Shown in pieces: positions 10,501 to 40,236 of a stretch of 64,000 nucleotides of DNA. The notes beneath the pieces were generated by a model. The model saw only the letters and a list, made by a program, of their open reading frames with translations, was not told where the DNA came from and ran no database searches. Position numbers and translations under genes: made by a program. The stretch lies in the NCBI GenBank assembly GCA_963402885.1, contig OY727095.1, positions 15,815,001 through 15,879,000 of the forward strand, read 5' to 3'. This DNA comes from Antedon bifida (taxonomy: Eukaryota > Echinodermata > Crinoidea > Comatulida > Antedonidae). How positions within the stretch are numbered: position 1 is the stretch's first letter; each line of letters begins with the position of its first letter.

Positions 10501-13500
10501 AGTGACCTGTAGCTGTAGATGTGCAAGAAATTTCGTTATTTGACGTTAGAGTCGCGCAGCGTAAGTTACGCGCGATTTTATGAATTTCAATGATTGATCA
10601 TAGATTATAAACCAAAAGTAATTTTGTATTGACACTTTGTGAAAATTTAAGTCATATCAAGGGCAAACTTTCTATGGATTAAAAATGGCATGTTTCACAA
10701 AAAGTTACGCGCGCACGCGCATTTAAAATTTCAAAATGCGCAAAATTAATTTCTAATCAACTTTCTACGCTGATCATGACATTTTGAGCATGTAAAAAAT
10801 TCCCACGCGCGCCCGCATTTTTACGTGCGTTGTGCGCACGTAACACTAAAAATATATTTTTTTGCGTGATTTATGTTTTTCCAGCCTTTTCTAGTAATTT
10901 TACCAACTTTCTAAACAATTTCGACTTAAAATCACGTCATACGAGCACGTCGAATTGGATAATTTGCGCGCGTTTTTGATGAAAAAGTTTAAAAATTCGT
11001 CAAAATTATGCCTTTTTTTAAACAGTCATAGATTCTAAACTACATGATGAACTTTTATTTTTTTTACATATTCTGGAAGTTAATGAGTTGTAGATATCGG
11101 ATCATGAATCAATGGGTAACCGGACATTGTGACGTCATCGTATGGCCACTCGAATATAAAATATTGGATTTTTGTCTCTTTTGTCATAGCTCATCACATT
11201 TAATAGAGCGCATCTCCACTTATACGTATTCCATTTCCCCCCATTTTTTATATTGTCTAGGTCAATCAATTATCTTTAGCATGATTTATCATTTTTAAGA
11301 TTTTTAAGACGTCATCATGGGCAAAAGCGTCAATAACTTTGGTCACTTATTTTCACCTATTCTGCACTGTATGTAGTACGTATACAGTATATAGTATATA
11401 CTGTATTACTTAGACGTGACACAAAATAGAGAGCGCACTAACATTTTTTCAATGGCATAATAGTTTTTCTGTGCGCAATATTCTAACGTATGGCGTGGCG
11501 GATAACCCGAATTTGTCAAAGTGACGAGTTCAAATCTAGTTTTTCATCATCTTTGTTCTTCTTTCTTTCCCGGAATTTTGTTGCACGCATATCTCTCACC
11601 CTTGTCAACATAAGATTGTATAACTTTGTCATAAGATTGATCTGTAGCTGTAGATGTGCAGGAAACTTCGTTATAAGACGTTAGAATCGCGTAGCGTAAG
11701 TTACGCGCGATTTTATGAATTTCAATGTTTGGTCATAGATTATAAACCAAAAGTCATTTTGTATTGACACTTGGTGAAAATTTAAGTCATATCAAGGGCA
11801 AACTTTCTATGGATTAAAAATGACATGTTTCACAAGAAGTTACGCGCGCACGCGCATTTAAAATATAAAAATGCGCAAAATTAATTTCTAATCAACTTTC
11901 TACGCTGATCATGACATTTTAAACATGTCAAAAATTCCCACGCGCGCGAAAAAAATTACGCGTAAGGTGCGCACGGAGCATGAAAATCATGTGTTTTTTT
12001 CTTGAATTATGATTTTACAGCCTTTCTTAGTCATTTTAAAAAAGATTTACATCATTTCAAATTAAAATGACGTCATACGAACACGTTGATTTAGACCATT
12101 TGCGCGCGTTTTAGTTGCAAAAGTGACAACAAATTGTCAAAATTAAGCCTATTTTTAATCTATAATAGCTCCTCAGGATCATCCACGACCCCCAATTTTT
12201 TTAATTTAATATGTAAGCAGATATGTATGGGCGGCCATTAGGGCCATAATAGTAAAAAATTAAAACAAAGAACTACGTCAAAAAACAACGAACGTTTTCA
12301 AAAATCAACGAACGTTTTCAAAAATCAACGAACAAACTCAAAAAACAACGAACGTTTTCAAAAATCAACTAACAAATATAGAAAACAAAGAACTAAAACA
12401 TATTCTCATAATAGTCAAGTTAAACACCAAAGAATAAACAAAAAAACAACGGACAATTTGCCAAATCAAATGACAAGTTTTCGCAATAGGACAATTTGTC
12501 AATTTAAAGGTCAAGTCGAACAATCGAAGGACAAGCTCAGCAATCAAAGGACGTTTGCAAAAAAATACTAACTAATTTTCGACGTTTGAGGGCAGCATTC
12601 ACAATCGATCTCGTGTAGATTACAAGCAGCATGCAGTGTGGTGGTAGGCACATTGTTTGCAGCCTATTTAGTATTTATTATGATTAGTAGGTCTATTATA
12701 TTATCAAAGTAATGTAGGCAATAGAAATATTTTTATAAACATTTATGGAGTGTACATGTAAGGAGGCAAGTGTTGCATATTAAATATGGCCTAATTAATA
12801 TGAAAGAGTGGACGACTATTTTATTTTAGTTAGGCCTAGCTAGCGGCCTAGCCTAGCTAGCCTATCTAGGCTATTCTAGTTAGGCCTATTTTAGGAGGCT
12901 AGCCTAGCTAGGCTCTAGCCATCATTAGGGCTAGGCCGAGAGGCCTAGCTTTTCATGTAATGTAGCATATTAGTATTATGACTGAACAAAAACTTATAGG
13001 CCTAGGTCAAATTTACTTGAGGTAAACCATAGAATGACCCTCATTATATTTATAAAATAATGACTCCAAGGTATAAATATTTATATTCGAATAAACGCCC
13101 CGCTTGAAATATACAGATAAAACTCCCATGGGCCATGGAACATCGTTTGAATTAAACACCCCCGCTCGGTGTGTTCATTTTTTTGCTGGAACAATACGCC
13201 TCGCTACATTCATAATACACAATAGGCCTCCTACCACGTCTTGACATTAATTATTTTGTATTTTTCATATCAAGGGGTGTTATTTTTAGTATATATATAT
13301 AATTATGTCACCATTTTACATCAAAAAATAATAAACGCCTCTCAAATAAACTCCCCTTAAAAACCCTCCTGTTTGGCAGACTTCCTAGTGGCGTCTATTC
13401 GAATATAGTTATATAATCCTTCCAAAGATATTTAAAACACAATATAATGCTAGGCCTATAATTGCACTAGAATGAAACATTGCATGTTTCATGTTACGAT

Positions 13501-16500
13501 GCCTTCAAAAAAAGGAAAGTCCACTCACTAGCCTCTTTTGACTTGTTAACAATTAAAACGATAAAAACGGAAAACATGAAACCTGGAAAGGTATGCTCGT
13601 TTTTTGGTAGTTAATGGTTGCCAAAATAGGTTTAAAAATAAACTTTATTATTATAAAGGTTTTTTATAATTTTCGGGTCACACAGTGGTAATCATATTGC
13701 TTTTCTTTCCAGTGGAGAATGGAAACAGAAGCAGTATTTACAAATATTAAAAACAGGGTGCAAAGACTTATAGATGGATTACGAAATAGTGAAACAACGT
13801 CAGGAAATGTCCAATATAGGTTGGAAAGTTTGTGCCGTGATGCCATACAATTTCGAGACCACATACCACATACTGTATTTGATTGTTTGGTGAAAGCTCA
13901 GAGTATCATGGATACAGAGCTAAATGTCCCTGCATTTGACTACACATCTGTTTCACCACCTGAAGTAACAAATAGCGGGGTTGGTCGGCCGCGATACAAT
14001 ATTACAGAGGAACAACTACGGTTCTTCATAGGTGAATGTTTGATTAATATAATGTTTAAAGTCTTCTCCACAATTGTTTTGCTTGATTTGTGGATAGAAA
14101 ATAATTTGTTGTTCTTTTTTCTACACAAGAATGGGTAAACCTATCTGAAACAACTTTAAAATATTTTCGTTCGTATACTGTATCTTAACATCAAGTTTTT
14201 GCGTTTGTTCGCAGGTGAAATGGGCAGTTCTTGCAAAGAAATGGCCAAATGTTTTTGCGTCAGTGAGAGAACAATTAAAAGGAGACTAAAGGCATTCAAC
14301 TTGTCCAAGAGGAGGCTGTACAGTGAAATGCCGGATGATGAGTTGGATGTACAAGTGCGGTTTCTCCTTACCAATATGCCTAATGCAGGTAACTATCACG
14401 TACGACGTATGCCTATGACATAAAAATTAAGTACAACCAAATTTCCGGAAAAAAGTCCTACAAATTAAGTGCAAAGTTAGCTGCCACACACAATCATTTT
14501 GGGTAGTGTTTCCCATTTGCATCATGCATGATGTATGTGTTAATAACATAGTCAGATCAAGGGGATCAAGCAGGCTCCCCACCCCATTCTATTTTGAAAG
14601 GTAGAAAATACAAGATGGGGAAAAAAGTGGAAATTCGGTAAGCAGATTGTTTTTTTTTTGTACCTCAAAATTGTAATGATTGTGAACAGATATAATGTTT
14701 TAAAAATATTTGAACAATATTTAGGATACAAGACAGTTGATGGTTATATGGTGTCACGTGGGATAAGGGTGCAGAGATATCGTATCCGGAACGCCTTACT
14801 GCGATTAGAACCGGGACGACAGGCACTGAGACAGATAACATCTATACGGAGAAGGCATTACTCGGTGCCTTCTCCTCTGTCTATTTGGCATATTGATGGC
14901 CATCATAAGCTTATCAGGTAAAGAATGTTATGCATTAAATTTACAATAAATATTTTATTGCGTATGTATTCAGTACAGATTCACAGTACTATACAGTAAT
15001 TAATTTAAAAAAATAAAAAAAATAATAATTTTATAGGTGGAGATTTGTGGTTCATGGTGGGATAGATGGATTTAGCCGTGTAATTGTATATTTAAAATGC
15101 AGTTCAAACAACAGGGCTGAAACAGTTCAACAACTATTTGAAGAAGCTGTTGTCAATTGGGGACTACCATCGAGAGTGCGGTCAGACTGTGGCGGAGAGA
15201 ATGTGGGAGTTGCCCGATTCATGCTTGAACATCCACTCAGAGGTCCTGGTAAGTTATTTCTAGATAATGTTCATTTCTGAGACTGTATTAAAGTACCTAA
15301 AGCAGTTAATTAAAGATTCAACGTATGCGCTGAATTTCTTTTATTTAAAAAAAAGTGTTGTTTATGTACAACAGATGGAATCAGATAAGTTGCGTATTCA
15401 TTTGTACAATCTTGAATTAATACGGTAAGTTTTTAATTGTGTATGTTGTCATAGTAAATTATTTATTGATCTATTCTTTCATTCAGGAAGAGGCTCCTTC
15501 ATTACGGGACGCAGCGTCCACAATTCGAGAATAGAACGGCTGTGGCGGGATCTTGGAGAGCAAATAATAAGAAGCTTTTATAACCTTTTTAAAGGGTTCG
15601 AGTCGCGAGGGATACTCGATATAGAAAATGAAGTACATATATTTTGTTTGCATGCAGTTTATTTACCACGGATAAACCATTTGGTTACTTCGTTTGTCGA
15701 AATGTGGAACAACCACAAGATTAGGACCGCATCAAATAAAACACCGTTGCAATTATTTGTTATGGGACTGCACGTCAGAAGAGGAAGTTTAATCAGTAAT
15801 GAATATTTTGAACAAATGAATGAGGTATGGTAATAGCGGCTATTAAAAGTATATTTAGAACACATGCTTTTATAATTGGCGGAATATAGGCGCAGGCATG
15901 CTCCACAGCATTCTGTCCAGAACTTAATTTACTAAAAATTATATTGTGACAAATTGTATTATGCTGTTAGTTAGTTACCGCTACAGTTATTAAACAATTG
16001 AATCGGGTCTTTTCTGTTCTGAGTTCTCCCATGGACTAATTAATTACTTATTTTGCTTTATAAAAATACTTTATGGAGTAAATTATGTAATCATTTTCAT
16101 GTTTGTAGAAAAAAAAGCTTTATTATGTATAGCAAAAAAATATACAATTTCAACATGTTTAGTAATTATGATTTCAAGAGTGGAATGCTTAACAAACACA
16201 TCCTGTTTCTTAACTAAGATTTATAATGATGATATTATGATACTTTCATATGATACTACGGTATATTTATTACTGCACCTAATAGTATTTTATGATAGTG
16301 TTTGGTGAATCCAATAAAACAGAAGTAAGCATACATTAATAACAAATGTGTTACTGTATGTCTATATTACAGGAAAGAGCGCAAGACTATGGTATTGACC
16401 ACAATGGTCCATTTCAAGAAGATGAGCATAATACAAATGTTGTTGTTCCCGATATAATATGTACACTGACCGATGATCAAATGGAATATTTTACTCAGGA

Positions 16501-19500
16501 GGTGTTCTCTGATGATTATGCTATTGATATATGGGATGACAGGGCTTATTTGAAGGGGTTAAATATTCTTACGAATTTTATTCAATACTAACAGCGAATG
16601 TTACTCATAACATTTCAATTAGAATGGACCTACGCTTGTATGAAATCATTGACCCAATTATTTAAATACATAATGTAAACAAGATGATGTGCTCGCTTCG
16701 CTCACGTACCATCTGGATCATGGCCACAGATGGTTCTCAAATCACATTAATTTCAGCATTAAAAAAATATATTTTTTTTTTTCAAATGTGCGTACCGCAG
16801 GAGTTTACAGAAACGAATAGACACGATGATTTAAGTAGTCAACTAAAATTAGCACCCTGGGACAGTTTTAACAAAGCATTAAATCGCAAATGTGTTACTG
16901 TATCAAACATGAAAACGAAACGTGTGTAACATTAGTGTTGAAGGATGGGGAAGAGGATATGGGTACAAAGAAGAATAATTTTTAAATATATTCTTTTATC
17001 TACTCAGTAATGAAATATTTTTTTCATGTTTTATAGGCCTGTAAATAATATACCACTTGATACAGTAACACATTTGCGATTTAATACTTTGTTAAAACTG
17101 TTCATAGTCGATTGAAATGTCATAGTACATGTAACGATACACCACTACAACGTGATATTTTTTCAATAATTAATTACAACTACCAACATTGAGAAGCAAC
17201 TATCAGTAATAAAGTTTATTTGTATATTGTGCGTTTATATATACAACAGTAAGGCATACTCACACTCACAGTAATACGTTTATTTTTACATGTGTTTATA
17301 TATCTAACAGTACCCACACTCGCATTAAAAAAATTGCGATTGCGATGCCAAAAATGGTTAATACGTATTTACAGTATATCTATATAGGTTCCCCAAGGGG
17401 CAATAAATTTCATCGGAAATCAATACATTTTATATAAAAGTTTTCTAAATCTATCAAAATAGTATTTTTAAAATAAAATCAGCCTGTCTTCAACATTATG
17501 ATGCTGTACTCGAGCTTTTCAACCGGTTTTCAGCCATTAAAAACAATTATCGTAGGAGGAGATAGGAAAATGCGAAGCATCCTCGTATTATTGTGTGGGA
17601 GTATTTTTCACGATAGGCATCCATTAGACGGTGTAGGCTATACCACAATCGGAAAACACCCCTTTTTGGGGCAAATCGTTGAACCTAAATCCGTTTTAAT
17701 TGTCAATAACTAATTATCTAACTCGATTTAATTAGAAAACAGGGTTACATCAGGTGGTTGAAATTGGTACCAAAAGTACGAACTGACTTTATATACCACC
17801 ATCGAGTAAACATTCTAGAAGTAACACGCGATTTACCGAATTATGCCCTTACCTAAATTTATATATAGATACTGTTTATTCATCATAGATTTGTTTAATA
17901 AAAACTGGCCTTTAATGTGGACTTTACTTTACTCAAGCCCAAAGGAGTCGCACAAAAATGCCATGTCAAATAAATTGAATATATCTTCTGGCATGGGTTG
18001 GCCAATGACCAGAGTTATCCTATTTATACACGTGTTGCTACAAGGTAGCCAACTGTCGTCTCTTCTGCAAAAAGAGACAGCGGGGGCATAGCCAAAACCG
18101 AGTAATGGTTCGTTTGCAGCTCCTGTGCAGAACTGCAACACACGGCCCAAATCGATTCCGTTTCGTCTTCCAGCTATAAGGAAAAAAACGATTGTTATAA
18201 TTGGAAATGTTAGTTAATATTACTGTTGTACAGAAATAGAAACTTTTACTTTGAATAAAAAGCTCTAGCTCAAACGTGCTCTTAGTTTTATTCAGTTATT
18301 TTAAAATTTATTTTGCATGTACCACTCTTGTACACTATCATTTGTATTTTGTATATTATAGTTAACTTTTAAAAATCATTTTATCAGATACGTATATAAC
18401 ATCCGCATATATACAACAAGAATCATTTGTTACAGTGCATTTTTGTAAATTGCATATGTTTCTATTTACCGGCAACTTCGCGGAGATATGCTGTGAAGTT
18501 TTTATACACGTTTTCTTCCAACATCCTGGTGTTTGACCCCTCCTCACCGCTAAACATAGGTTTGAGTAGGTGTGTAATTTTTCTAAAGGTTAGGGGTTTT
18601 GGTTCGTCTTGCTGTACCAAATAAACCATACTTGGCCGTTTGCGCAGCACCTACAAAAGAAACATGTTATTGTTATTATATCTTCGTCCAACAGCGACCT
18701 GGCATCTGTTTAATATTGCTAATCTTACTGTAGGCCTATTCTTTCATTTCGTTTGATTTAGTTTACGTTATAACACTTTAATAATAATAGTGACCTTTAA
18801 ACTAAATTCTAAACTTAATACTAAAATATATAGTTGCATTAATTAATTCAGTCGCCTTCTCTGCTGTCTGTCCAGTGTTTGAACAGGAACTTTGGTAGTA
18901 AACTCCCACTTATTTATCCCTTCAATTGAATTATTACCTATCGGACGAGTTCCGACGGTGACACTAATAATTAACGCTTTGCTATTACTTAGGCCTATAT
19001 ATCATAATTCCTAAATCTTTATAAACGAAAATGTTCTCACGATGTCGAATGCAAAATGTTTGGAGCGATGGACCACAACAATAAATAAGCAAATATGCGC
19101 ACCAACACATAAACTGTTTTGAACATAATGTTAAGAAGAACCTACCTCAACAAAACCTAAATAGCTGAGTCCTTTCAGAAATTCAGCTTCTACAACATTT
19201 GCCTGGCATTCGCCCTTTACTACACTCATCAAGTGTTCTCCAAGTAGTGAGGGAGTAGGGCCATTTTGTAAGAGACAGAGCCCTACGAAATAATAACAAA
19301 GTATACACAATGAACAGATGTATGTTACGATGTTGCATTTTAATACACCGTTATTATCCATGCCGGGTATCTATTCACTGGATGACACAAAATATGGATG
19401 TGAATCATATGAATATCAGAATAACAATAATACTGCAAACTTACCCATTACTAACCCCATGCAATAATAATAGTTATTCGGAAGGCCGTCACTGATAAGT

Positions 19501-22500
19501 TGACCATTGTCGTCTAGCATCCTTTCTTTGCATGCGCGCAACATTTCTCTCAAAAATTCCTGTCTTGGCCCCCCTAAATCTTTAGCTCTTTCGCCCAAAA
19601 ACTCAACTTCCAGTGGAACTGTTAAGTCAGGGTTAGGCGCCATGAGTTCGACAACTCCGTCAGCGAAAAGGGTGTTCCTAGAGGGAAAAATTGTTTTTAA
19701 CTATGATTTTCTTAAATAACGAACCATGTCGGAATGTAGTTTTTATCTGTCGTTTATAAAAAACAAAATAAAAACGGTTTATAGCAACAACATATGCGTA
19801 CTTGATTTGTAATTTTAATATAATATGAAAGACTAACTAGATTTCGGTAGGCCTACTGATTTGGGTGTAAATGTAAATTAGACATGTAAAATTGTAATTA
19901 CCGTGCGATAAACATTGGAAATGTGTCGCCTTCAATAGTTTCAGCATCGGTTGTGAGGTCGAGTGGGCGACCACGCATTACGTTCTTCTGAAACGTTCTT
20001 AGAATTTCCACAGGATTGTCAGTTTCGGTACTAATTCGATCGACAAACATAGTAAGGGTATAGTTAAATAGGTGTATTTCCATTGTAATTGTGATTAGCA
20101 GCAAGTCGTTTATTAAATTATTTTAAGCTATGCTAATATTAAATGTTAGTTTCTCAGTTTTATCCACTTTTCTTAATTGTTATTATTATTATTATTACAG
20201 TATTATGAAAGAATGTGGAAGTTTTGTTACCTTCTAATTTAGTCGTGTTCTATTATTGTTTATACTTACACTATTATCATAGAATATTTTGCATAAACGT
20301 TATTTGAATTGAAATAACTTACGTTGTATTCAGCGTTTTTGTGACGGCTTCGTGAATATGTGTTTGCAAGGGGTTTAAATGTTGGTCTGCCTTTGGAACA
20401 TCCCTATAACAACAGATGGTGTTATATTTTAATTTAAAATTGTTTGCGCCAAATGGTGAAGATACTGTGAACCGGGCTAGGCACACTGACAGAGTATAGT
20501 GTGTCAACCAGTATCTGATTGCAAATAACAAATATCCAGAAATGTGCTACGTTCCTTATAATTGAAGTGGGAATGTTATGGGGAAAACCCCTCCAGTCTC
20601 TGCTTGCACCAACAATTTCCAGCACAATTACGCATTAGTACCATGCGTGTATAGGCTTATTTGTGAAATACTGGTTAATTAAAGAATACCCATGTAACTT
20701 AACTGTACAAAATGTGAACGATGATATAATAACGCATTACCTGTCAATTTCTAAGAACGGTAGTTCCCAATCATAAACTTCGTTATCGTCCAACACAATA
20801 CTTTGTGAGTCCTATTGAAAAAACGACAACTAACCAAATGACATATTCGTTGAAACAAAATCCAAACACCGCCACTTTACGAAGGTGATCGAACAGAGAA
20901 ATACTGTTTTAGTACTGTACAACCCATTATAGAACATGGCTTTGTCTACAAATCATATAAACATGGTACAGCAATTGCAAACAAATAAGTAATTTAGGCT
21001 ACATTTTGAGTATTTATATTTTCAATAGACTATACAACAACAATTGTTCTTAATGTTTCACTGTTAAAATAAGGGATGAAATAGGGAGAAAGGGGCGATG
21101 AGGGACTGAGATGTTCTTTAAAATTGCATTTTAGGGTAAACATAAACAGAACATTAACACACTAAAACCGAAGTTGACATTGACTCACCGTCTGTTCAGT
21201 ATTTGGAACGTCGATCTGAAATAAATAAAATTATTTTGTAACAACATTGGAAGGTTTTTCTGTGATTTCCATTATTTATTATAATTTACACGCGTCGATT
21301 AAAAGACATGAACTGTTGTTTTAATTTATTACATTATTTTCTGTTTATTGTCAATATCCATAGGCCTAAATTAGCCATAGGCCTACTTACAGACTGGGAT
21401 CCATTATCATCACTGTCGGAAACAGTCTGCAAGGAGAAAAAAAACACGTTATTGAGGAGCCTGATATTGTATGCTGCATCCATGTATATTCATTTTCCAC
21501 ACACGCCCAAAACCACGAATACCATAATAACTAGTCATTTTCCAACACAATCATTTCTATTAATTGTCCACATACGTAATTGATAGTAAAGGGTTTTGTT
21601 AAATCGGAACAAATAATGCGCCATATAAACAATATATCCAATACTCACATTCGCCTGGCAAAACTCCACATGAGAGCGAATTTCTCCGGCATCGAATAAT
21701 ATCCCACATATGCGACATTTTAATTGAATGCCCGACGATGGGCAAACAATGTCTTCAAGTATAATTGAAGTCTGGATTGGTCTGTTTATAAAAAAATAAT
21801 CTATTAGTATTGCATTTTTTTAATAATAATAACATAATTCTTTAAAATAGCCATGTACTTTCAAATTGCACATTGACATTTTTAAAAGAATAACATAAAA
21901 TCACCATTATGCCTATTCCCTTATTCCATTTTTTAGATGTCCATATATCGACTCACATTTTTAATATACTGTATTAGTAATTTTTTTCTTTTTCTTTACA
22001 GACCCCTCAGGATAAAAACCTCCGGAGGGTTTGTCTTTGCTCCTTTTTGGCATTTCGTCTATTGCTCTGTCTTGCATTCTCTTTTTTTAACTTTGATTTT
22101 GGTTACGTTTAAAATGTTGTTGGTATTTAATTATTTATGTATTCTTGATTCATTGTCATATATATGTTTTTGTCCTCTGGTTTTGTCTTAATTTTATTTA
22201 GTAGCCTATTGTATTTTTATATTTTGATGTATTTTTATATTATCATATGAGCCGGGAATAATAATAATAATAATAAAAAAACAAACCTCATGTACACGCG
22301 GTTGCTGCAGGCCAACTTTAGGTACTCGGCTGTACATGGCCCGTTATGCATTAGCTCCAGCAATGTTCTGCTGCCTTTCGCAGGCAACAGAAAATCGAAG
22401 CCGTCAAGGAGTTGTGGTTTATTGAATGCACTGTGAATAAAATGTAAAATGTGTTTTTTTTTTTTGTTTATTTTACATTTGATTGTTATACACCGTCAAT

Positions 22501-25500
22501 ATTCATACAATGTTAATAATATACCTGAATATTTGAGATTGGACATGTTCCTCGCAGCCGTCTACCTCAAATTGAATTTTCTTTTCGCCAATTCCATTGG
22601 CACTTAAAATGGCCTTTTCCTCCCGCGATGGGATAGTGGAATCACCGCAGTCGGCCAGACAAACAACGAGCCGTGAAAAATATCGGCATTTTTCTAAAAT
22701 GAAATATGAAAGGAAATGGAATAATAATAATCCACATCAAAAGAAACCTTTAGTACGTAACTGTGATTGGTTGACAGTGTATTCAAAATAAAATGCTACA
22801 CCAAATATATCTAGCTGCATGAATTCTCACTCATATGACTTATCACAAAGCAGTAAATATGTTTATAATTATTAATAATTCTAATAATAATGAATGACTT
22901 ATAATTACTAATGCACATTACTCCATAAACAAACCATAGTGGGTACCGGGTGAACAGAAAAATCCCAATTATTATAACAGGCGAATGACTTGAAACCTTT
23001 TTTAAAGAAAGAAAGTATTTTGTTTAAAAATTAAAGTTGTACTCACTTTTGGTCAAAGGCTTGCCGGTTGCGCTGTTGGAAGGCCTATTAAGCTAACGAA
23101 TGAATAATACATTAATATTTATGACGACAAAAATACGAAATATAGAATTAAATTATAATCAATGAGCAATACAATTAGGTTGTGACTGTATACATAATAA
23201 AAATACTTGTGCTTACACGAAAAAGACGGCTATGCTCTTGTAATATGCTGAAATGAAAAAAAAAAGAAATGAATGTTTTTGTTTATGTCAGAGCAAACAT
23301 AAATTCTATGTATATTTTCTATGCAAATGACAAAAATGGAAGTAATTTTCCACCGATGAATGAATGAATTAATATCAGACTTGACCATCAATTTCTGAAA
23401 ATATATAACATACATTGCATAATTATGTTGATGTTCGTCTTTTCTGCTAACGGAAAGTGATTAAAACATATATCACTGCGTAAACTACTATTACATAATA
23501 CCGTCGAACGGTATGTATTCAAATAAACACCCCGGACGTTTATTGTTCAGGTTTTTTTAGGGGTGGGGGGGGGGGGGGGGGCTTTATTCGATGGAGACGT
23601 TTATCGAGTGGGTGGGCCTTAATTTTTATTTTGTGCTTAAATTGGTAACATAATATGTATAAGCAAAATAACACCCCTTGACATGAGAAAAATAATAAAT
23701 TAATACCAAGACGTGATAAAATACAGTAGGCCTACAAATTTTACATAGAAATGTGTTATGGTACAGTGTTGTGTGTATTATGAATGTGACGTGACGTTTA
23801 TTAGATTAAAAAAAAATAAAGGGAAGGAGTGTGGAGAGTTTATTTGAGGGCCGCTAATACCCACGATGTTCCATGGTAAACTTGTTAAGTAGTCTAATTT
23901 ATATAACTAGGATAGGGCATTATACCTGCGTGTACTTGTAGTAGGTCTACCAATGGTAAACGGCCTACTACTACTGCCACTGATAGTAGTGGAAGTGTTA
24001 GCGATTGTACGAGCGTCAAAAATACGGCTGGTAGTAGTAGTACTGGTATTACTGTAACTACTATTACTAATTGTAGTGGTAGCAGCAGCTCTAGTTGAGG
24101 AAGATGGGACGCTGTCCATAATTCTCTGCAAGACACTGATTAGTTCCCGTGCTGTTTCCTCCCGTACCATTCCATGTACAGTATTGTCCTCTGCCATGTT
24201 TAATAAATACCTGATGTAAAACAAATAGTCAGAAATGTAATAGCCTTTAAAACAAACATTATGAATCTCTTACAAATTTTGCAACCAAACAGTGATTTTT
24301 AATATGTACCTATTGAGATATTTATATACTTAGGTTCATACCAAGTTCATGCAACCCAAGTCTTGTCAACGTCCATTATAATAGGGGGGTCAACCATTAT
24401 GACTACTACTAATTTCCACAATTAGCCTATTGAGTATATTATGTAACCAAAGAAATTAAATGACATAAACTAGTATAGTATGAACATTTCCAGACTTTGC
24501 AATAATTACAATCTATTCATTACAGGTCACAGAAAGATAAACATACCCATCCGAGTATAAAGCTCGCTACCATTCAAACAGGTATCTTTGGCAATTGTGA
24601 ATATAAAAAACACGATATATAGAACTAAATAACACCTAATAATTGTTCCTTATATATCAAACATTAGAATGATATAAAAATTAAAATGCTACTTACAATT
24701 TATATCAAGAAAATACGGAAAACTTCGCTACAATCCAACGGTCTCTCAAGTGAAGGCTGATAACACAGGCAAACCCTATTTGCATTTTGCCGCGTTTTTT
24801 AGGATGTTTTACATTTTTTTCAAAATAGATTTTTGCTCATAAGAAAAATATGTAAGGAATCTATCTATCTATCTTTCTTTTAAGATACTATTTAAAATGA
24901 TTGATGACATAGCCTACAAGTGATCTTAAGTTGCAAATAAAACACTTTGGTGCTTTAGAAAATAGCCAGGTACAGAATTGACCCCACACTGTCTGTTTTA
25001 AAACGTAAAATGACACATACTTTTATTTTGTAACTTTACAATTTAAAACATATATCATAATGTTCAGTATTGTCTACAGTTTATTTTGAGCTTTACTATC
25101 CAAAAGAATCCGATTTATAATAGCCGAGATATTTAGGTGGGAACATGAAAATCAAGTGTTTTTTTAGAATATCACGATGCAAAATCAGTGGTATTCATGT
25201 CCCAGTGGAGTGTGTTCAGGCAATTTAGCTATTTTGTTGAGATTCATATGATAATATTACAAATATTAAAACAAAAAACTGTATGTGTATGTACCTCGAG
25301 TTTTTCTGTAAAAAGTGAATGCTGCCCTCAAACGTCGAAAATTAGTTAGTATTTTTTTGCAAACGTCCTTTGATTGCTGAGCTTGTCCTTCGATTGTTCG
25401 ACTTGACCTTTAAATTGACAAATTGTCCTATTGCGAAAACTTGTCATTTGATTTGGCAAATTGTCCGTTGTTTTTTTGTTTATTCTTTGGTGTTTAACTT

Positions 25501-28500
25501 GACTATTATGAGAATATGTTTTAGTTCTTTGTTTTCTATATTTGTTAGTTGATTTTTGAAAACGTTCGTTGATTTTTGAAAACGTTCGTTGTTTTTTGAC
25601 GTAGTTCTTTGTTTTAATTTTTTACTATTATGGCCCTAATGGCCGCCCATAGATATGTTGTAGATATGAATTCATGCAGAACCTTTACCACTCGGATGTT
25701 ATGACGTCATCGTATGGCCACACGAATGTAAAATATAGGATTTTTTACTCTTTCGTTATTGCTCATCAAATTCAACAAAGCGCTTCTAGGTTATACGTAT
25801 TCCATTTCCCCCGAAATTTTAATATTGTCTACGTTAATCAACTATCTTTCGCATGAATTAAAAATATTTTAATTTTTATGACGTCATCATGTCTAAAAAC
25901 GTAAATAACGTGGGTCACTTATTTTCATCTTTACAGTAAATTTCAATCTGTTATAGCTCGTCAGAATAAAAAGTGATAATCATGATTAAAACGTTTTCTG
26001 GAAGCTATTGGATTGTAGATACGAATTGATGTGAATATTTTGCCAATCAGATGTTGTGGCGTCATCATATGGCCAGTTGAATTCAAAAAGTCATATTTTC
26101 ATCTCTTGCGTAAAAGTTCATTGCGTTTAAACGAGAGCCCATCTCACTTTTACGTGCCCAAAATTCTTCAAATTTGTTTTAATGTAAATTTTTAGATAAT
26201 TATCTTCTAAAATTGTTATCTTTATATGTCAATTTGATGACGTCATCGTGTTAAAAATTGGATTTAAAAGATGGGTCTCGTAATTTTGTCTATGCTACAC
26301 TGTATATAACATATACAGTTTATTCTGTAAAATACTGTGGTGTATGCTACATAATAGGTACAATTCAGCACTGTAAACATATTTATTTCATGTCATAGGA
26401 TGGCATATTAATTGTCGAGGTTCATATAGTTAAGTATGTGCATGTTGCGTTTGCGTGGATAACCCGAACTCGTCAAAGTGACGAGTTCAAATCTAGTTTT
26501 AATTTGGTTTCTTTTAATAAAATTTGATTTTTGTTAATGGGCTTACTTTTTTCTCTCTCATTGAATGGTTTACTTCAGCAGATCTATACAATGTTAGCCT
26601 ACTACACTAGCAAATCCCTGTACATTACCAATACTAGTATATAAATATATTTTAACGAGAAATCATTTTTCCAAAAATGTCATAAGATAAGAGACGGAAC
26701 TTTTCTTAAAAGCATTCAGTTTGAAAAGAATAATTTCATATTACCTTTCTATTTTAAATTGCATTACTCAAACAATTTAGATTTTGAAAACTAACAAACA
26801 TTGTGTACATTTCTCTTCCTTTTGTGGCAAAATATTTGCACAAAAAGATCCTAGGTTGGAAAAGGATCTCCAGATGTAGTTTAAGGCCATGTTTATAATT
26901 AGCTGGATAGACTGACAGAAGCATTTTTTGTAAGGTAAGGGAGGGAGCAGGTTTTTAATTAATAATTATTTTTTATTAAAATCAGATTCTATTAATTTTT
27001 TTAACATAAACATTTTTAGTTTTTTAGTAGTTGTCCCATTTTATTTCATATTTAAAATTAATTAGACCATTGTCAATAATTGTTAATTAATAACTAAATA
27101 TATAAAAAAAATAGATTTTTTTGTTCATTAAGAAAATTAAAGATTTATGTTATATGATAGGTAACTGTACACTTTAAATCAGTTATCATAAATCATATAT
27201 AACTATTTACTTATTTTTTTATTTGGTTTGTTTTAACCAAATTTGATTTTTGTTAATGTGCTTACTTTTTTCTCTCATTAAATGGTTTACTTCAGCAGAT
27301 CTAGAGAATGTTAGCTTATTACACTAGCAAATCCCTACGGGGCGCTGTATGGGACATTGCTAATTTTGTCGAAATATTACAATTTTGTCTACACATAATT
27401 AATTTTGTCAATACAAAATTCATTTTGTCAACACAAAATTCATTTTGTATTGACAAAATTCATTTTGTGTTGACAACATTTATTCTGTGTGGACAAAATC
27501 AATTTTGTCTTGACAAAATTCATTTTGTCTTGACAAAATTAATTCTGTGTAAACAAAACTCATTCTGTGTAGACAAAATTAATTCTGTGTTGACAAAATT
27601 AATTCTGTGTAGACAAAATTCATTCTGTGTAGACAAAATTCATTCTGTAACGACAAAATTCATTCTGTAACGACAAAATTCATTTTGTGGCGACAAAATT
27701 AATTCTGTGTGGACAAAATTAATTCTGTGTAGACAAAATTCATTCTGTAACGACAAAATTCATTTTGTGGCGACAAAATGTATTCTGTGTAGACAAAATT
27801 TATTCTGTGTAGACAAAATTCATTCTGTGTAGACAAAATTCATTCTGTGTAGACAAAATTCATTTTGTCGCGACAAAATGAATTTTGTTAGCCGAGCCTA
27901 CTCAAGCGTGGGACAAAACGTTTTAACATTTAAATTAGAAGGCGGGGTTGTTATTGGAAACTCGAAGATTGACAGTTATAGGCCTACGACCAAACAGCAC
28001 GCGAATATCATTTTACGACCTCCTCTACACCGGTGCCAACAAATTGTTCATAGGTGCACCATTTGTGTGGACGCGTGTATTAGCATTATTTTGTAAAACC
28101 CAGCAAACGCAAATTTACCTTCTACAAATTCTATCTCGATTTATTTATGTGGTCTGTATTAAATTTAAAATATGTTTTGTTACAAATATGTAAATTTTGT
28201 ATCTGTATATGTTTATAATTATGATTCTATATTTAAATTAACTGTTTTTAGTTTTTCTATCTAGTTAGGTTTTATATTTACTTTTGTTTTTAGTCGCGTG
28301 AAAGCAACTCTATAGTTCACTATGTCGGTCGGTCGGTCCGGTATCACTTTGCGTTTTATCGCGTTTTCTGTACTCTTTGAACTGCACGCGACTTACAGTG
28401 GCTGTTGGCCTTGTTTGCTATATGCTTTTGAAAGAAAAATGGTAAAGCACTTTCTTTACATCGACTCACGAATCAAACGATTTAAATTGAAAACAGAGTC

Positions 28501-31500
28501 CGATGCTGTTGTTTGAATATAATAATGTTAAAAATGCTAGATATAAATGTTATGTTTCTATGCTTATTTTACAACTTCATGGTTGATTTTATTTATTATA
28601 CATTGCTAATTGCAAATAATTGTTTATAGGTTTACATTGTTCTTTGTACTTTTGATGTACGTATTCAGTCTTTGGCTGGCTTGATAAGATTGATGTTAAA
28701 TAAAAATGCATTTTCCACTAATAAAATATGGAGTTGTATCGAGAGAGTATCGTAATTTCAGGCAGAATGGTTTTCGGTCTGGAAAGGTCATTATTACACT
28801 GGGGTGTTGATATTTATACATCGAATGTTTTATGGGCAATCAGTCCTGAACCTAGCCAACGTAGGTTACCTGTCCTACTTACTACTGTAGGTTAGAGGTT
28901 ATTAGGTTTCGCAGGGTGGATGACTGTTATAATAAAACTAACGTGAGCAATCTTTTGTAGTCAGTTCTTTAAATGTTTTTTTTTCCTTAAAATAACGGAC
29001 AGCTTTCAGCATCATTATTTCTGCAATGATTATTATTATCCTAAAGATATATTGTCCCCTGAAAAAATGTTTTTTTGGTTATCCGCACTTGGCGGATAAC
29101 CCCTTGTTATTGTCAGGATCTTTTTTTTTTTTTTTTTTTTTTTTTTCTATGTTCTTCTTTCTTTCCACGAATTTTGTTGCACGCATATCTCTAATTCTGG
29201 CCTACATAAGATTGTATAACTTTGTCATAAGATTGACCTATAGCTGTAGATGTGCAGCCAAGCTTTTCGACGATTTCGGAGTTGCGCAGCGTAAGTTACG
29301 CGCGATTTTATGAATTTCAATGATTGATCATAGATTAAAAACCAAAAGTAATTTTGTATTGAAACTTGGTGAAAATTTAAGTCATATCAAGCGCAAACTT
29401 TCTATGGATTAAAAATGGCAGGTTGTGCTGAAAGTTACGCGCGCACGCGCGTTTAAAATTTCAAATTGCGAAAAATCCATTTCTAATCAACTTTCTACGC
29501 GTTTCATGTCATTTTGAGCATTTCAAAAATTCCCACGCATGCGCATTAGTTTTACGCGCGCGTGCGCACGTAGGGCAAAAACATGTTTTTTTTGCTTGAT
29601 TTTTGTTTTTTCAGCCTTTTCTAGTAATTTTACCAACTTTCAAACAATTTTGACTTATAATCACGTCATACGAGCACGTAGAATTGAACAATTTGCGCGC
29701 GTTTTTGATAAACAATTTCAAAAATTTGTCAAAATTATACCTTTTTTTAAACAGTCATAGATTCTAAACTACATGGTCAATTTTATTTTTTTTTTACATA
29801 TTCTGAAAGTAGATGAGTTGTAGATATAGAATCATGCATCCATTTGGCTAACCGGACATTGTGACGTCATCGTATGGCCACTCCAATATCAAGTATAGGA
29901 TTTTTGTCCCTTTCGTCATAGCTCATCACATTTAATAGAGCGAATCTCTACTTATCCATATTCCATTTTCCTCAATTTTGTAATATTGTCTAGGTCAATC
30001 AATTATCTTTTACATGATTTACCATTTTTAAAATTGTGATGACGTCATCATGTTCAAAAGCGTCAATAACTTTGGTCACTTATTTTCACCTATTCTGCAC
30101 TGTATGTAGTATGTATACAGTATATAGTGTATACCGTATATACTTAGACGTGAAGCAAAATAGAGGGCACACTAACACTTTTTCAATGGCATAATCGTTT
30201 TTCTGTGCGCAATATTCTAACGTATGACGTGCACGTGGCATTTGGGCTGCGGATAACCTAACTCGTCCGTAGTGACGAGTTCAAATCTAGTTTAATCTTT
30301 TTGTTGAATATGTTATTTTAATGTCACATAATAGTTATTCACTTTCACAAAAAATTGGGTCTGAAAAAAAAATTATTTACCTGAAAAAACTGTAATTTAA
30401 AGCAAAAAATGGTCAAATTGTCTGGAAGCCAATGAGTTTTTGGGTAATTTAACTGTTTATTTTGTCTTTTTATAGGTGAAATAATTGTTTTCCCCGTTCT
30501 TTTTTCTTATGGAAGTGAACAGCTTCATTAAAACTGCATAATGGCCTATTCAAAGCCCGATTTTAAAAATCTTTATTTTTCATGATTTTGGGAGACAATA
30601 CATCTTTAATTTTAAAATAAAGTATATACATTTTATAAGATTAATAAATAATATTTTAAACGACAAAATATTAATTGTCAAAGTATGAATACTGATCATA
30701 TCTGATATTTTCAGGGGTCCCTGATATTATAAAATAGATTAATATGATAGCAATAGAGACGGAGGCATGCTCAGCCATAATAACTGAACCAACAACAAAT
30801 GTCAAAGATTCGCGCGCTGTCATCATTTATAGCTTCACCCTGTCTTGCCCTTTTCACGTTTAAACTCCGCCTTCTAATTTAAATGTTAAAACCGAGCCTA
30901 CTCAAGCGTTGGACAAAATGTTTTAAAAAACGTTTTGTCCCACGCTTGAGTAGGCTAGGCTAACAAAATTCATTTTGTCTACACAGAATGAATTTTGTCT
31001 ACACAGAATGAATTTTGTCTACACAGAATAAATTTTGTCTACACAGAATAAATTTTGTCTACACAGAATACATTTTGTCGCCACAAAATGAATTTTGTCG
31101 TTACAGAATGAATTTTGTCTACACAAAATGAATTTTGTCCACACAAAATGAATTTTGTCCACACAAAATGAATTTTGTTGTTACAGAATGAATTTTGTCG
31201 CCACAAAATGAATTTTGTCGTTACAGAATGAATTTTGTCTACACAGAAATAATTTTGTCAACACAGAATTAATTTTGTCTACACAGAATGAATTTTGTTT
31301 ACACAGAATTAATTTTGGCGAGACAAAATGAATTTTTTCCACACAGAATAAATTTTGTCAACACAAAATGAATTTTGTCAATACAAAATGAATTTTGTCA
31401 ATACAAAATGAATTTTGTGTTGACAAAATGAATTTTGTATTGACAAAATTAATTATGTGTAGACAAAATTGTAATATTTCGACAAAATTAGCAATGTCCC

Positions 31501-34500
31501 AAATGGCGCCCCGTAAATCCCTGTACATTTACCTTATTTTGCAATGCTACTGGTGCCCCATGCTGAATGAGACACGTCACTATTTCTAAGCTATGTGCAT
31601 ATCCACTCCCCAGATATGAATGTAATTATTTATTTATTTATTTATTTTAACCATATTTAATGAGGGTATAGAGTGTCACTGTCACAATGTTCAATACAAG
31701 TTGGGTAACAATGGGTAGAATATTGTGTATGCTTTCAATTGATACCATACAGTTTGTCCATTGGCATTTTAAAGAATAATTTAACCCGAAAATTTGTTTT
31801 TTGGTCATTTTTGGGTCAAAGGTCAGTAAAAGCATTTCCGGTCATTTTTTCGCTAAAAGTTGTGTTAGACCGAATATAAATATGTATATTCTGAACAATT
31901 TGCCACCAAAAGCAAATCTGTACGACAAGTGGTTGTCGAGATATAAGAACCACACATTTTTAACCTTTGACCCCGATTTTGGGCATGTTCGTCCCAGATA
32001 GCGAATTTGGCACACATTCCATGTTGTTCGTTGGGGTCAAATTATCTTATAACAGTTGAGATATTCTCTCCTAAATTAAATGCATACAAATCTGACCCAG
32101 GTCCTAGACTAAAAATACATATTTCATAAAATTGTACAGACAAATGTTCAGATATTAAAAATATGAGGTCAATAAGCAGTTTAATGAATTTATATATAAA
32201 TTTAGGTAATGGGAAATTTCAGTAAATTAGGTGCAACTTCTAGAATTTTTACCCAATGGTAGAGAAAGTTGGTACATACTTTCGGTACTAATTTTTAACA
32301 CCTAATGAAAACCAGTGTACTATATTGACAATCAAAACAAATTTATCATTTGCCTCGATGAAGATCATATCATATCATGAAGCCTTATACCATCCCATCA
32401 TCAAATGTACCAAGACAGGAATTTGGTGAACAATACCACGCAATAAACAAAATTAAGGTAATTCTCAGGATGACAATTATATTTGACTACATAAATTCCA
32501 TCATATCTGTATTTATTTGCCTTGTGTACAGTGCAATTTTCAGTTATTTACCAAAGTTCATGTATTGGAGAAGCATCTGTGAGCACTTACTAGTATATTA
32601 TATTTTAACAAGAAATCATTTTTCCAAAAAAGTCATAAGATAATGGACGGAACTTTTCTTAAAAGCATTCAGTTTGAAAAGAATAATTTCATATTACCTT
32701 TCTATTTTAAATTGCATTACTCAAACAATTTAGATTTTGAAAACTAACAAAACATTGTGTACATTTCTCTTCATTTTGTGGCAAAATGTTTGCACAAAAA
32801 GATCCTAGGTTGGAAAAGGATTTCTTTAAAATGGACCTGAAATGGACTTTCGATTTTCAAGAAATTCACACATGTTATTTAAATGTATCAAATTAACACA
32901 AACCCATACAAATAAAAACAAAATGTATAGTATTTTGAGAAAAAACGAAATTTTAAGATACCTTGGTAAATTAGCGAAAATTACTCACGCCATTGCAATA
33001 TTCTATTTCAACGGCCGTCGGGAGCATCTATATTCACGACGTCACATATACACACGACGATCGAGAGCGTGTATGCCGCCCGATAGTCCGTGAATGATCG
33101 ACGGCCAGGAAAGATACGCGAAGCGCTGACACTAATACTAATTTATTCAATATATAATGTTGTTGAAATTTAGTGCCCTAAAATGTACTTTGTTCTAAAA
33201 CCCGAATTTAGAAGGCCTACCTCCCAAACCTTTACTAGGCCTAGGCCCCAGCGCGCGGAGTCGATCCTCCACCCACCCATGCGAGGCTCCGTTTCATGTG
33301 CATCCAAAGCGATATCAACAACTTGCTGCTCATTGTCAAGCCAAAGTAAAATATGAATCAAATTCGTTTTCGAACTGCCTTATTCGTGACAAATAAATTA
33401 CCATCTCATATTACTAATTTAATTCTGCTAAACTAAAAACTAAAGAAACTAACACATTTAAATTACGAACGATATACAAAATTCTATTTTTGAAAATACA
33501 CGAACCGAAAAATATGGATACGCATCATTGCACACGGCGCTGTATATCATGGACAACGTTGCCAGGCTAACGTCGGTATTGCCAGAAAAAACCCGTCGAT
33601 TTGGAGATTTTAAATCGTCATTTACTCGATAAATAACCGTTTATACGGTAATAATTTTATATAAAAAAATTCTAAATATGTTTCTGCAAAAGCACAAGCA
33701 TTTTTTAGAAAATACTCCAAAGATTTCAAGAGTTATAGCCAAAAAACTGCAAATTGTCCATTGGAGGGATAGGAATATATTCGCAAAGTGACGTCACCCG
33801 CGAATTTTTTTGATTTTCAAATGGGGCTTTCCCCAAAAGGGCGAATTTATATTTTGTAACAATATACGTTCTAGCAACACCTAATAGCCCCCAAAACGTC
33901 ATTCTAAAATGAAAAAAATCGAAAATCCATTTCAGGTCCATTTTAAGGCCATTTTCATAATTAGCTGGATAGACTGACAGAAGCATTTTTTGTAAGGTAA
34001 GGGAGGGAGCAGGTTTTTAATTAATAATTATTTTTTTATTAAAATCAGATTCTATTAATTTTTTTAACATAAACATTTTTAGTTGTTTAGTAGTTGTCGC
34101 ATTTTATTTCATATTTACAATTAACTAGACCATTGTCAATAATTGTTAATTAATAACTGAATATATAAAAAAAATAGATTTTTTTGTTCATTCAGAAAAT
34201 TAAAGATTTATGTTATATGATAGGTAACTGTACACTTTAAATCACTTATCATAAATCATATATAACTATTTAGTTATTTTTTTATTTGGTTTGTTTTAAT
34301 CAAATTTGATTTTTGTTAATGTGCTTACTTTTTTCTCTCATTAAATGGTTTACCACATCATATCTATATAATGTTAGCCGACACACTAGCAAATCCCTGT
34401 ACATTACCTTATTTTGCAATGCTACTGGTGCCCCATGCTGAATGAGACACGTCACTATTTCTAAGGTAGGGTCTTCACGCCACAGATATTCATGTAATAG

Positions 34501-37500
34501 ACTGTCACCAGACTGGAAAGGAATCACAATGAAGTTTATAAATACTGACAACAGACATGTAATGTAAAATTGTTGGTTTTTTTGTTAATACAAACAACAA
34601 CAATTACTGCTAAATAATGTGATAAAATCCTAATTATCATTATCGATAAATGAAAACAAAATATAATATATTACCATGGATCAGATCTAGTGATTGTTAT
34701 TTATTTATTTATTTGTTCTTTCTTTAAACTGAAATACACTTTCAATACAGATGTACTGATTTCCAAAGTGGTTCAGTAAACATATTTACAACAAAAATAA
34801 AATATAAAAGAAAAACAAAAAGAAAGAAAACAGATATAAAACTATTTACAATTGTGAAGGCAAAAAGGTTAATACATATATGATTTCTATAGTGAAGATT
34901 TAAAAGTTGCCAAAGACATATTATGGAGTTCTGATTTTATGTTATTTGGTAGAGAATTCCATAATTTAGTTGATCTATAAACAAAAGTTCTTTTACCCTG
35001 AGAGTTATTCCATAACGGAATAGATAAATCATTATTACTTTGGGAGCGAGTGCATTTATTATGGTTATCTACAGTAAATTGAAATAATATTGTTAAGTAT
35101 CTTGGAGCTATTTCTTTTAAACATTTAAATAGCATTATAAGAATATTTTCATTCCATTTTTCTGTAAGTCTACTCCATCCAAGAGTACTTAAGATATCAT
35201 TAATAGGGGTATACATGTCTACTGATAACAATATTCTACCTAATCTGTTGATTAAAACCTGAAGAGAATCTGAAAAACTTATGTTACAATTGGACCAAAC
35301 ACAGCAACAATAATCAAATAATGGAATAATTAAAGCATTTGCTAACATTTTTAAAGTATACATAGGAAGATACATCTTAATACGACGAATCACACCAATA
35401 CGTTTAGCTATTTTACAAGACATTTTGTCTATATGTTCCTTCCAATTTAGTTGAGGATCAAAAATGACACCTAAATACTTAAAAGAATCAACTCTTTCAA
35501 TAGTTTCGTTATTATGAAGTAAAGTTATATTCTTAAATGTTGCCGTTTTCTGATTTGTGCTGAAAACCATAAGCTTGGTCTTATTAAGATTTAGTGTGAG
35601 TTGATTATGGTCAAACCATTCTATAATTTTGTTTAGATTGATATTGAGTTGATTCTGAAGTATTAAAGGGTCAGATGAACTACATAAGAGTGTTGTATCA
35701 TCTGCATACATCACACATTTACATGATAAAAATTCAGGAAGTGAATTTACGTATAAAATAAATAGTAAAGGTCCCAGTATTGATCCTTGTGGGACACCAA
35801 TATTAACATTCATGGTGTCAGATTTTGTTGAATTTATACAAACAACTTGAGATCGTCCACTTAAATATGATTTAAACCAGTGAAGTGCAATATCATTTAA
35901 GCCATAATTCCTTAATTTGGTAAGTAATATTTCATGGTTAACTGTATCAAATGCTTTCTTCAAGTCAAGAAATAAAGCAGCAGATGAAATACCTTTATCA
36001 AAGTTATCTAAAATATAATCAGTAACATCTAAAAGAGTAGTTTCTGTAGAGTGACCTTTTCTAAAGCCCGATTGGGAGGGATTTATAAGGTTGTTAGTTC
36101 TTAAATACAAGTATAATTGATCATGCACAGCACGTTCTAAGAGTTTTGAAAGTATGGGTAAAACAGAAATTGGGCGGTAATTATAAGGGTCTGACATATC
36201 CCCATCTTTATATACAGGTGTTACCTTAGCTAGTTTCCATTCATCTGGAAATCTAGAACTGAACATAGAAAGATTACAAATATATGAGAGTGAGTCACAA
36301 ATTATCGGAGCAGCTAGTTTAAGAAGTTTGCAATCAAAGTTATCAACACCCATAGCTTTATTAGTTGACAATTTACATAACTGGTTAAAAATGTAATCAG
36401 GGGTAAGAAGATCAAATTCAAATTTGTTACCCGCAAAACAATTTTCTGAAGTGTTACTAGTATAATTATTGGAGTTAGTATTATTGGAGTTAGTAAATTG
36501 ATTTGCTAAAGAACTTCCAATTGAAGTAAAATGAGCATTGAAAACATTGGCTGTGTCCTTATCATTGGATGTATAGTTTTTATTATTATCTTTATATACA
36601 TTATTTATACTGGGTTTAGTTTTAGGTATTAATTTATTTATTGTATTCCATAATTTCTTAGGATTTTTAGCATTTTCGTTAATAGTATTTGTACAATATT
36701 TTCTTTTTAAATTCCTATTTAAATTATTAACTTGATTTCTCAGTTGTTTAGCTTTGTCCCAATCTTCAGGTTCATTAGTTTTGTGAGCTTTCTTATATAG
36801 TAGTCTCTATAATAATAGCCTATTACTTAATGTAAGTAATCATTAAAATCTAATTACTGTACAATATCAATCACAAAATTTGAACGTTATAAAATACATA
36901 TTTCATAAAATTGTACAAACAAATGTTTAGATGTTAACAATATGAGGCCAATAAGCAGTTTAATGAATTTACATATAAATTTAGGTAATGGGAAAGTGCC
37001 CTCTCTAGTTTTCTATCAATTTATTATTAATTATTATTAATTAATGAGTAATATGAACATATTTTAAACATTTAATGCTGGAAGCTGGTTCTACTCCTAA
37101 CAAAGTTTCATACCTCCAAATTTCATCAACGTATTCAAAGCACTTCAATAAATATCACATTTACATTACAAATTCGGGTTTTGGATAGATTTTTGCTTAA
37201 AAACATATACAAAAAACATCGATAAAAAATACTTTTCGTATTTAAAAACATTTGAAACTTCTTTTATATGTTCAATTTTTAGCCTAATGTGGTTAATCAG
37301 TGCATGCAGGTTATACCCCATCATCAGTGTGTATTTATATTATTATTTTTAGCCTAATGTGGTTAATCAGTGCATGCAGGTTATACCCCCATCATCAGTG
37401 TGTATTTATAATATTATTTTTAGCCTAATGTTGTTAATCAGTACATGCAGGTTATACCTCCATCACCAGTGTGTATTTATATTATTATTTTTAGCCTAAT

Positions 37501-39178: not shown

Positions 39179-40236
39179 TGCAAAAATACAGTGTGTTCAT
39201 TTAACAATTATTAATGCCGATAGCTTCTAGTGTAAAAGTAAGCCTACACATTCTCTTCTGAAAATAGGAAAGGTAAACGTTTAATAGGAAAATAGGAAAG
39301 GTAAAACATAATTCCACTACTACTGAATGAAGATGACCTGTATGCTGGTGTTACTGAATGAAGATGACCTGTATGCTGGTGTTACTAAATGAAAATGACC
39401 TGTATGCTGGTGTTACTGCATGAAGATGACCTGTATGCTAGTATTACTGGTGTTACAGCATGAAGATGACCTGTATGCTAGTGTTACTGAATGAAGATGA
39501 CCTGTATGCTGGTGTTACTTAATGAAGATGACCTGTATGCTGGTGTTACTGCATGAAGATGACCTGTATGCTGGTGTTACTGCATGAAGATGACATGTAT
39601 GCTGGTGTTACTGCATGAAGATGACCTGTACGCTGGTGTTACTGCATGAAGATGACCTGTATGCTAGTGTTACTGCATGAAGATGACCTGTATGCTAGTG
39701 TTACTGCATGAAGATGACCTGTATGCTAGTATTACTGCATGAAGATGACCTGTATGCTAGTGTTACTGCATGAAGATGACCTGTATGCTGGTGTTACTGC
39801 ATGAAGATGACCTGTATGCTGGTGTTACTGCATGAAGATGACCTGTATGCTGGTGTTACTGCATGAAGATGACCTGTATGCTAGTGTTACTGCATGAAGA
39901 TGACCTGTATGCTAGTGTTACTGCTTGAAGATGACCTGTATGCTAGTGTTACTGCATGAAGATGACCTGTATGCTAGTGTTACTGCATGAAGATGACCTG
40001 TATGCTGGTGTTACTGAATGAAGATGACATGTATGCTGGTGTTACTGAATGAAGATGACCTGTATGCTAGTGTTACTGCATGAAGATGACCTGTATGCTA
40101 GTGTTACTGCATGAAGATGACCTGTATGCTGGTGTTACTGCATGAAGATGACCTGTATGCTAGTGTTACTGCATGAAGATGACCCGTATGCTGGTGTTAC
40201 TGCATGAAGATGACCTGTATGCTGGTGTTACTGAAT

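Follow-up and report, generated by a model that had tools for sequence, protein, structure and literature searches.

The window analysed here is a 64,000-nucleotide stretch of the genome of the crinoid Antedon bifida (contig OY727095.1, positions 15,815,001 to 15,879,000; C8:15815001-15879000 in the searched 315.6-Mb genome). Positions 12226-25651 of the window (C8:15827226-15840651) are, almost beyond doubt, one complete DNA transposon that holds a gene for a DDE transposase and, convergent to it, a gene for a protein with the HECT domain of HECT ubiquitin ligases (E3s). Its features, in window positions, are as follows.

12226..25651, no strand: complete IS3EU-type transposon, 13,426 bp, recognised by its terminal inverted repeats (TIRs), end sequence and target-site duplication (TSD)
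12220..12225, no strand: left TSD, GATATG
25652..25657, no strand: right TSD, GATATG
12226..12602, plus strand: left TIR, 377 nt, starting TATGGGCGGCC and holding 20-bp tandem repeats
25315..25651, minus strand: right TIR, 337 nt, 40 nt (two 20-bp units) less than the left TIR
13719..16591, plus strand: transposase gene, 482 aa, 6 exons (13719-14031, 14215-14388, 14725-14917, 15037-15248, 15487-15824, 16373-16591)
23926-24197, 23217-23247, 23047-23092, 22525-22693, 22287-22430, 21649-21781, 21391-21426, 21189-21215, minus strand: HECT gene, exons 1-8 of 15
20741-20811, 20323-20403, 19902-20030, 19445-19677, 19146-19282, 18470-18650, 17929-18173, minus strand: HECT gene, exons 9-15 of 15
21658..21717, minus strand: UBZ4-spaced finger C-x2-C-x11-H-x3-C, residues 243-262
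19146..19282, minus strand: exon 13, the single exon spanning the site from which the small N-lobe is lost (about residues 481-492)
18028..18030, minus strand: codon of Cys612 at the catalytic position (LPCSNTCIN)

Element ends and transposase

The left and right TIRs are identical at 337 of 337 aligned positions, and their sole difference is a 40-nt insertion or deletion in the 20-bp tandem repeat. The element runs from TATGG to CCATA with the perfect 6-bp TSD GATATG on both flanks, in full agreement with the long TIRs and target duplication of a preliminary description of the window. A scan of the window for the terminal 18 nt that allowed up to 3 mismatches gave two places, each an exact match, where 0.01 would be expected. 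An 8-bp reading of the TSD (AGATATGT, with ends ATGGG) was dropped, as 6 bp with TATGG ends fits both IS3EU and the six TSDs of the second family described below. Two further inverted repeats lie inside the element, a 45-nt pair (98%; 16862-16906 / 17057-17101) between the 3′ ends of the convergent genes, and a pair of about 100 bp (77%; 13232-13334 / 23623-23718) outside the coding exons.

The transposase exons join at GT/AG splice sites in consistent phases, and the protein matches Pfam rva_4 (Integrase core domain) at E 1.5e-80. D220, D277 and E314 are invariant across 15 aligned transposases (the query and 14 of 120 listed relatives), which bears out the six-exon DDE gene first described. 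The top two of the 120 listed relatives come from a sea urchin (64% identity over 74% of the query) and a brittle star (58% over 83%); of 4870 candidate proteins, the search as a whole returned 1860 at E<=0.001. IS3EU, or GingerRoot, transposons are described as having TA..TA ends, a usually 6-bp TSD and a DDE transposase with its first D at 100-300 residues, and rust-fungus members end in TAYGG..CCRTA (PMC10045372, PMC12730594). The window element has TAYGG..CCRTA ends, a 6-bp TSD, TIRs longer than 30 bp (377 and 337 nt) and an integrase-core DDE transposase whose first D (D220) lies within 100-300 residues of the N-terminus, and because its ends, TIRs, TSD and transposase match the published definition it is placed in IS3EU. 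Fungal IS3EU elements also bear accessory genes (TET/JBP and alpha-kinase), with transposase and alpha-kinase genes oppositely oriented (PMC12730594). The window element is thus like its class in ends, TSD, transposase type and accessory gene carriage, whereas its accessory gene is HECT-type, a word that does not occur in the main texts of PMC10045372 and PMC12730594.

Three contigs of a metagenome-assembled genome (MAG) of a sponge-symbiont bacterium (LWTN01000118, LWTN01000139 and LWTN01000127) encode animal-type rva_4 transposases, probably as host contamination; a tblastn search with the HECT protein gave no match there. The viral contigs searched held no confirmed relative.

The HECT-type protein

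The second gene runs from 24197 to 17929 on the minus strand and encodes 644 aa. Convergence, consistent phases and an open frame had been described before and stand, while the exon count rises from 14 to 15; all introns are GT-AG. GC content is 0.45 in the exons vs 0.297 in the introns. At the stop rate of the introns, and with no correction for exon choice, a frame of 643 open codons has a log10 probability of about -21.7. Two further observations back the exon model: exons 4-8, 10 and 11 are partly conserved in a second copy (from which exons 12-15 are absent), and the architecture recurs in a second family. In what follows the window element represents family 1, and families 2, 3 and 4 are its HECT-bearing relatives elsewhere in the genome.

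Profile searches of the spliced proteins, which the preliminary description had proposed, return rva_4 in the transposase and HECT in the second protein, the latter at 26.9 bits vs a Pfam cut-off of 23.9, a narrow margin for a scored stretch that is the C-lobe only. The domain alone reaches 29.5 bits, and pieces of families 2, 3 and 4 reach 38.0, 37.5 and 43.5 bits. HECT is the only Pfam match at E<=0.1 (an unrelated domain of unknown function appears in the finger piece at E 0.12). The 276-aa HECT domain matches 38 PDB sequences at E<=10, every one of them a HECT E3; WWP1 leads at 4e-6, in two collinear stretches. C612 aligns with the catalytic Cys of WWP1 and with the Cys of the three other families, and all four aligned families retain this Cys as well as the Phe four from the end. 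An AlphaFold prediction of exon 15 alone was discarded (predicted local distance difference test 39.9).

A G2E3-like consensus is 37% identical to the window HECT over 129 + 90 aligned positions and serves as a lead, not a test. G2E3 has PHD/RING fingers before its HECT domain, whereas the window protein has no PHD or RING match outside its HECT domain.

The reading frame is intact but, judged by alignment, the HECT domain is incomplete, with the small N-lobe gone and the catalytic Cys kept. The two WWP1-matching stretches are 152 residues apart, vs 229 in WWP1, and at the lobe position 20 residues stand in families 1 and 2, vs 86 and 84 in families 3 and 4, which retain the small-N-lobe stretch and whose splice joins are approximate. 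About 65-77 residues are missing from families 1 and 2 where known HECTs have the small N-lobe, their site for binding the ubiquitin-conjugating enzyme (E2) (PMC10520629, PMC5294409; a further source on HECT structure is PMC6063350). HACE1 has its small N-lobe, the presumed site for E2, at residues 676-751 and its Cys at 876 (PMC10520629), which makes 76 residues ending 125 before the Cys. The join in the window HECT lies 120-131 residues before C612, at about residues 481-492, with boundaries set by the G2E3-like consensus and consistent with the four-family alignment. Splicing cannot restore the lobe because its flanking motifs share one exon, and introns 12-13, 13-14 and 14-15 hold zero, one (87 nt) and one (75 nt) in-phase candidates of at least 60 nt, none plausible as a lobe exon. 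The loci C12:14.057 and C8:20.199, both degraded and interrupted by stops, have a similarly short join. The window HECT thus shares N-lobe and C-lobe motifs and the catalytic Cys with the E3 ligases WWP1, AREL1 and HACE1, but its HECT domain is about 276 aa long and lacks their E2-binding small N-lobe. What had been called an intact HECT ubiquitin ligase is therefore intact in its frame and catalytic Cys, and not in its E2-binding lobe; family 2 likewise keeps the Cys and lacks the lobe.

The protein also carries a finger, described earlier as UBZ-like with C230, C233, H245 and C249; the spacing is present, and the 15-exon model renumbers the residues to C243, C246, H258 and C262. Among eight sequences scanned, C-x2-C-x11-H-x3-C occurs once each in families 1-3 and in none of the other five loci, which contain only parts of genes; the expectation is 0.02 per 13.4 kb (50 shuffles). 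UBZ4 fingers such as that of WRNIP1 have the same spacing, but the sequence match to this nearest solved finger (3vhs) is weak (E 0.45, second of three matches). RAD18 is another protein with a UBZ4 finger.

Compared with the fragment at C8:19.49, the HECT gene has a ratio of nonsynonymous to synonymous substitution rates (dN/dS) of 0.19 over 182 codons of exons 4-8, 10 and 11 (14 synonymous changes at 121.3 sites, 10 nonsynonymous at 424.7 sites; Fisher p 9e-5), a segment that excludes the catalytic C-lobe. This calculation, also proposed in the preliminary description, was exon-limited, and gapped codons were dropped, which removed most of exon 4 along with 6 codons from exon 5 and 2 from exon 7; an earlier value of about 0.46 was abandoned, its alignment ends being intron-derived. 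Part of the HECT protein is under purifying selection, and the protein is likely to have a selected role.

Two alternatives concern only the ubiquitin-transfer step. In one, the protein is a canonical E3 ligase that binds E2 in the ordinary way and ubiquitinates the transposase or host factors, the targets proposed in the preliminary description; the Cys motif, the matches to both HECT lobes and the fuller HECTs of families 3 and 4 fit such an enzyme, but the published E2 site (PMC10520629, PMC5294409) is absent and the neighbouring introns offer no fitting exon, and we hold this to be improbable. In the other, the short HECT would take no ubiquitin from E2; it would bind ubiquitin as a decoy or adaptor and block the host's ubiquitin signalling at the transposon or break. 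Loss of the lobe inside one continuous exon in families 1 and 2, the short joins at the two degraded loci and the retained finger are what such a protein would display; a dead enzyme, however, would have no need of the Cys with its neighbouring residues, nor of the Phe four positions from the end, all of which both short families keep although their HECT domains are 39% identical over 260 positions. This second alternative is conceivable but rather unlikely. Whether the protein performs real ubiquitin transfer is an even call.

Copies, families and the transposase-HECT association

Exon-wise, the HECT protein has 50 matches in the genome, which refutes the proposition that HECT exons exist only at this locus. 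Family 1 has a fragment at C8:19.49 Mb (82-85% DNA identity over 750 + 1504 aligned bp), where a nearby transposase match is absent. The window element's TIR has 52 matches; among them are oppositely oriented ones spanning 176-215 bp that resemble miniature inverted-repeat transposable elements (C7:2604053-2604267, C11:26393194-26393369 and C9:3355008-3355186).

Family 2 comprises eight copies, every one with HECT and transposase matches in convergent order. A 151-bp end query located both ends in seven of them, six of which have TATGG..CCATA ends 9.4-17.5 kb apart and perfect, differing 6-bp TSDs (GAAGCC, CGCGCG, ACCGTT, GTAGGT, GAGTTC and TCATGC). The seventh copy (C7:36.22) has a truncated end and flanks that differ from each other. 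The eighth (C7:36.24) has one end, and its flank AATTAC equals the left flank of the C7:36.22 copy; these inverted copies at C7:36215070-36244725 may form one 29.7-kb composite, inserted or rearranged as one unit. Because family 2 inserted repeatedly with the pair of genes, at differing TSDs, the HECT gene moves with the transposon, and the earlier proposal of HECT genes as transposon cargo holds for further copies and families. That TIRs elsewhere always come without the HECT gene, named beforehand as a refuting outcome, is true of the window family's own TIR as far as its 52 matches go, and false of family 2. An initial assignment of the family-2 ends, GTAGTTCATG, was wrong and was replaced by TATGG..CCATA. 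A further family-2 end pair (C13:18457410-18468886, 11.5 kb) has no transposase or HECT match in the genome searches, and its TSD is unmatched. In family 3 the right end CCATA is present in both copies examined, and a left end was not found in these two.

Misassembly, or a chance arrangement of unrelated repeats and exons, is scarcely credible as an explanation of the window element: the two genes, ends and TSD coincide here and at six family-2 places with different TSDs, the long open frame is itself an improbable accident, and short of an assembly-wide fault the family-2 copies exclude it.

Across the genome, 46 rva_4 matches form 30 transposase loci, and 97 HECT matches with 8 further places form 40 HECT loci when matches less than 30 kb apart are merged. 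A HECT locus lies within 10 kb of 16 of the 30 transposase loci, vs a mean of 0.09 and a maximum of 2 in 2000 random placements on the 11 large contigs; four places with only the N-terminal part of HECT (C13:19.698, C8:21.148, C8:19.265 and C11:10.531) were omitted, and including them leaves the 16 of 30 unchanged. The pair is convergent at 14 of the 16 and on the same strand at C1:6.83 and C12:14.06. Family 2 accounts for eight of the 16 and family 3 for two, which brings the distinct families nearer eight. At C8:23.29 the HECT looks different in type, and its proximity may be coincidence. Seen from the other side, 15 of the 40 HECT loci are near a transposase, and the remainder are presumably mostly host HECT genes. 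The transposase loci with no HECT nearby include four rva_4 matches of equal score that have a 410-aa open frame (C1:3958953, C13:17080447, C15:8220536 and C16:18125870).

The element is very probably an autonomous cut-and-paste IS3EU transposon from a lineage in which the second gene is regularly of HECT type. Several observations weigh against this reading. The window's TIR pair belongs to the sole full-length copy of its family found in the assembly; the eight family-2 copies are not independent in the association count; and 14 of the 30 transposase loci stand more than 10 kb from any HECT match, although at one of them (C8:21.165) a match to the N-terminal part of HECT lies about 17 kb off. 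Within family 2, the C10:7.40 copy is without 2.6 kb, including N-terminal HECT exons, in comparison with the 13,333-bp C12 copy, and three further copies span only 9.4-10.1 kb between end matches. As to the protein, two of 31 PDB matches of its full length at E<=10 are non-HECT (the other 29 are HECTs), the copy used for dN/dS is itself a fragment, and the E2-binding lobe is missing. As a query in the protein database it gave no match among 7964 and 2339 candidates, in a search that requires shared 5-residue words, for which reason this null is not evidence of absence.

The single full copy found of the window family and the transposase loci without HECT would also suit passenger capture, in which transposon ends came to enclose a HECT gene of the host that is carried about but has no role. 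The same convergent pair nevertheless recurs in several diverged families, family 2 was repeatedly inserted with HECT, and purifying selection acts on part of the gene, all of which make passenger capture highly unlikely.

A HECT gene in an animal IS3EU lineage

We propose, tentatively and with less than even confidence, that an animal IS3EU lineage has long had, as one of its regular genes, a HECT gene for ubiquitin transfer that spreads by transposition, and that a sublineage lost the E2-docking lobe, kept the Cys and contacts E2 in a non-canonical way; G2E3-like expansions in other animals would then largely be transposon genes. In the broader and more probable reading, of an IS3EU transposon with HECT as its second gene, the DDE transposase would cut at the TATGG..CCATA ends and insert with a 6-bp stagger, while the finger of the HECT protein would bind ubiquitin or ubiquitinated chromatin. 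Where the element leaves or enters the DNA, a Cys612 thioester could then hand ubiquitin on to the transposase or to silencing or repair factors of the host. Having lost the E2-docking lobe but kept the Cys, the HECT of this sublineage would probably engage E2 in an unusual way.

The transposons Ginger1, Mutator and Helitron are described as having proteases that take off ubiquitin or SUMO, and the ubiquitin pathway has been proposed to play a part in transposition (PMC2836005). Ginger1 with an OTU or Ulp1 protease is, like the window element, an integrase-like transposon encoding an enzyme of the ubiquitin/SUMO pathway, but its protease domain lies inside the transposase and removes the modifier (PMC2836005), whereas the window element has a separate gene with a ligase-type domain. 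The 4-bp TSD of Ginger1 (PMC10045372) likewise differs from the 6 bp of the window element and family 2. Ubiquitination-related motifs are described in a planarian retroelement (PMC6431247), in a text in which the words HECT and IS3EU do not occur. In searches of open-access papers, which did not extend to Repbase, none of the titles and abstract openings listed describes a HECT gene in a DNA transposon.

A ligase-type enzyme as the standard partner gene in copies with perfect TSDs makes the proposal of ubiquitin in transposition directly testable. Carriage by transposons could also explain how HECT gene families become large, namely by transposition, and the short HECTs provide a natural test of whether a HECT enzyme can keep its chemistry once the E2-binding lobe is gone.

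Elsewhere in the window, a second TIR-like structure (27336-27931 / 30916-31515) consists of 600-nt inverted repeats (93%), mostly of 20-bp tandem repeats, and measures about 4.2 kb in total. A 494-aa reverse-transcriptase-like open reading frame at 34887-36371 is, by eye, a long interspersed nuclear element. Tandem arrays of 71-bp and 31-bp units occupy 37275-38679 and 39321-42069, and an open reading frame at 55277-55900 has a sub-threshold match to a death effector domain (23.4 vs 35.9 bits).

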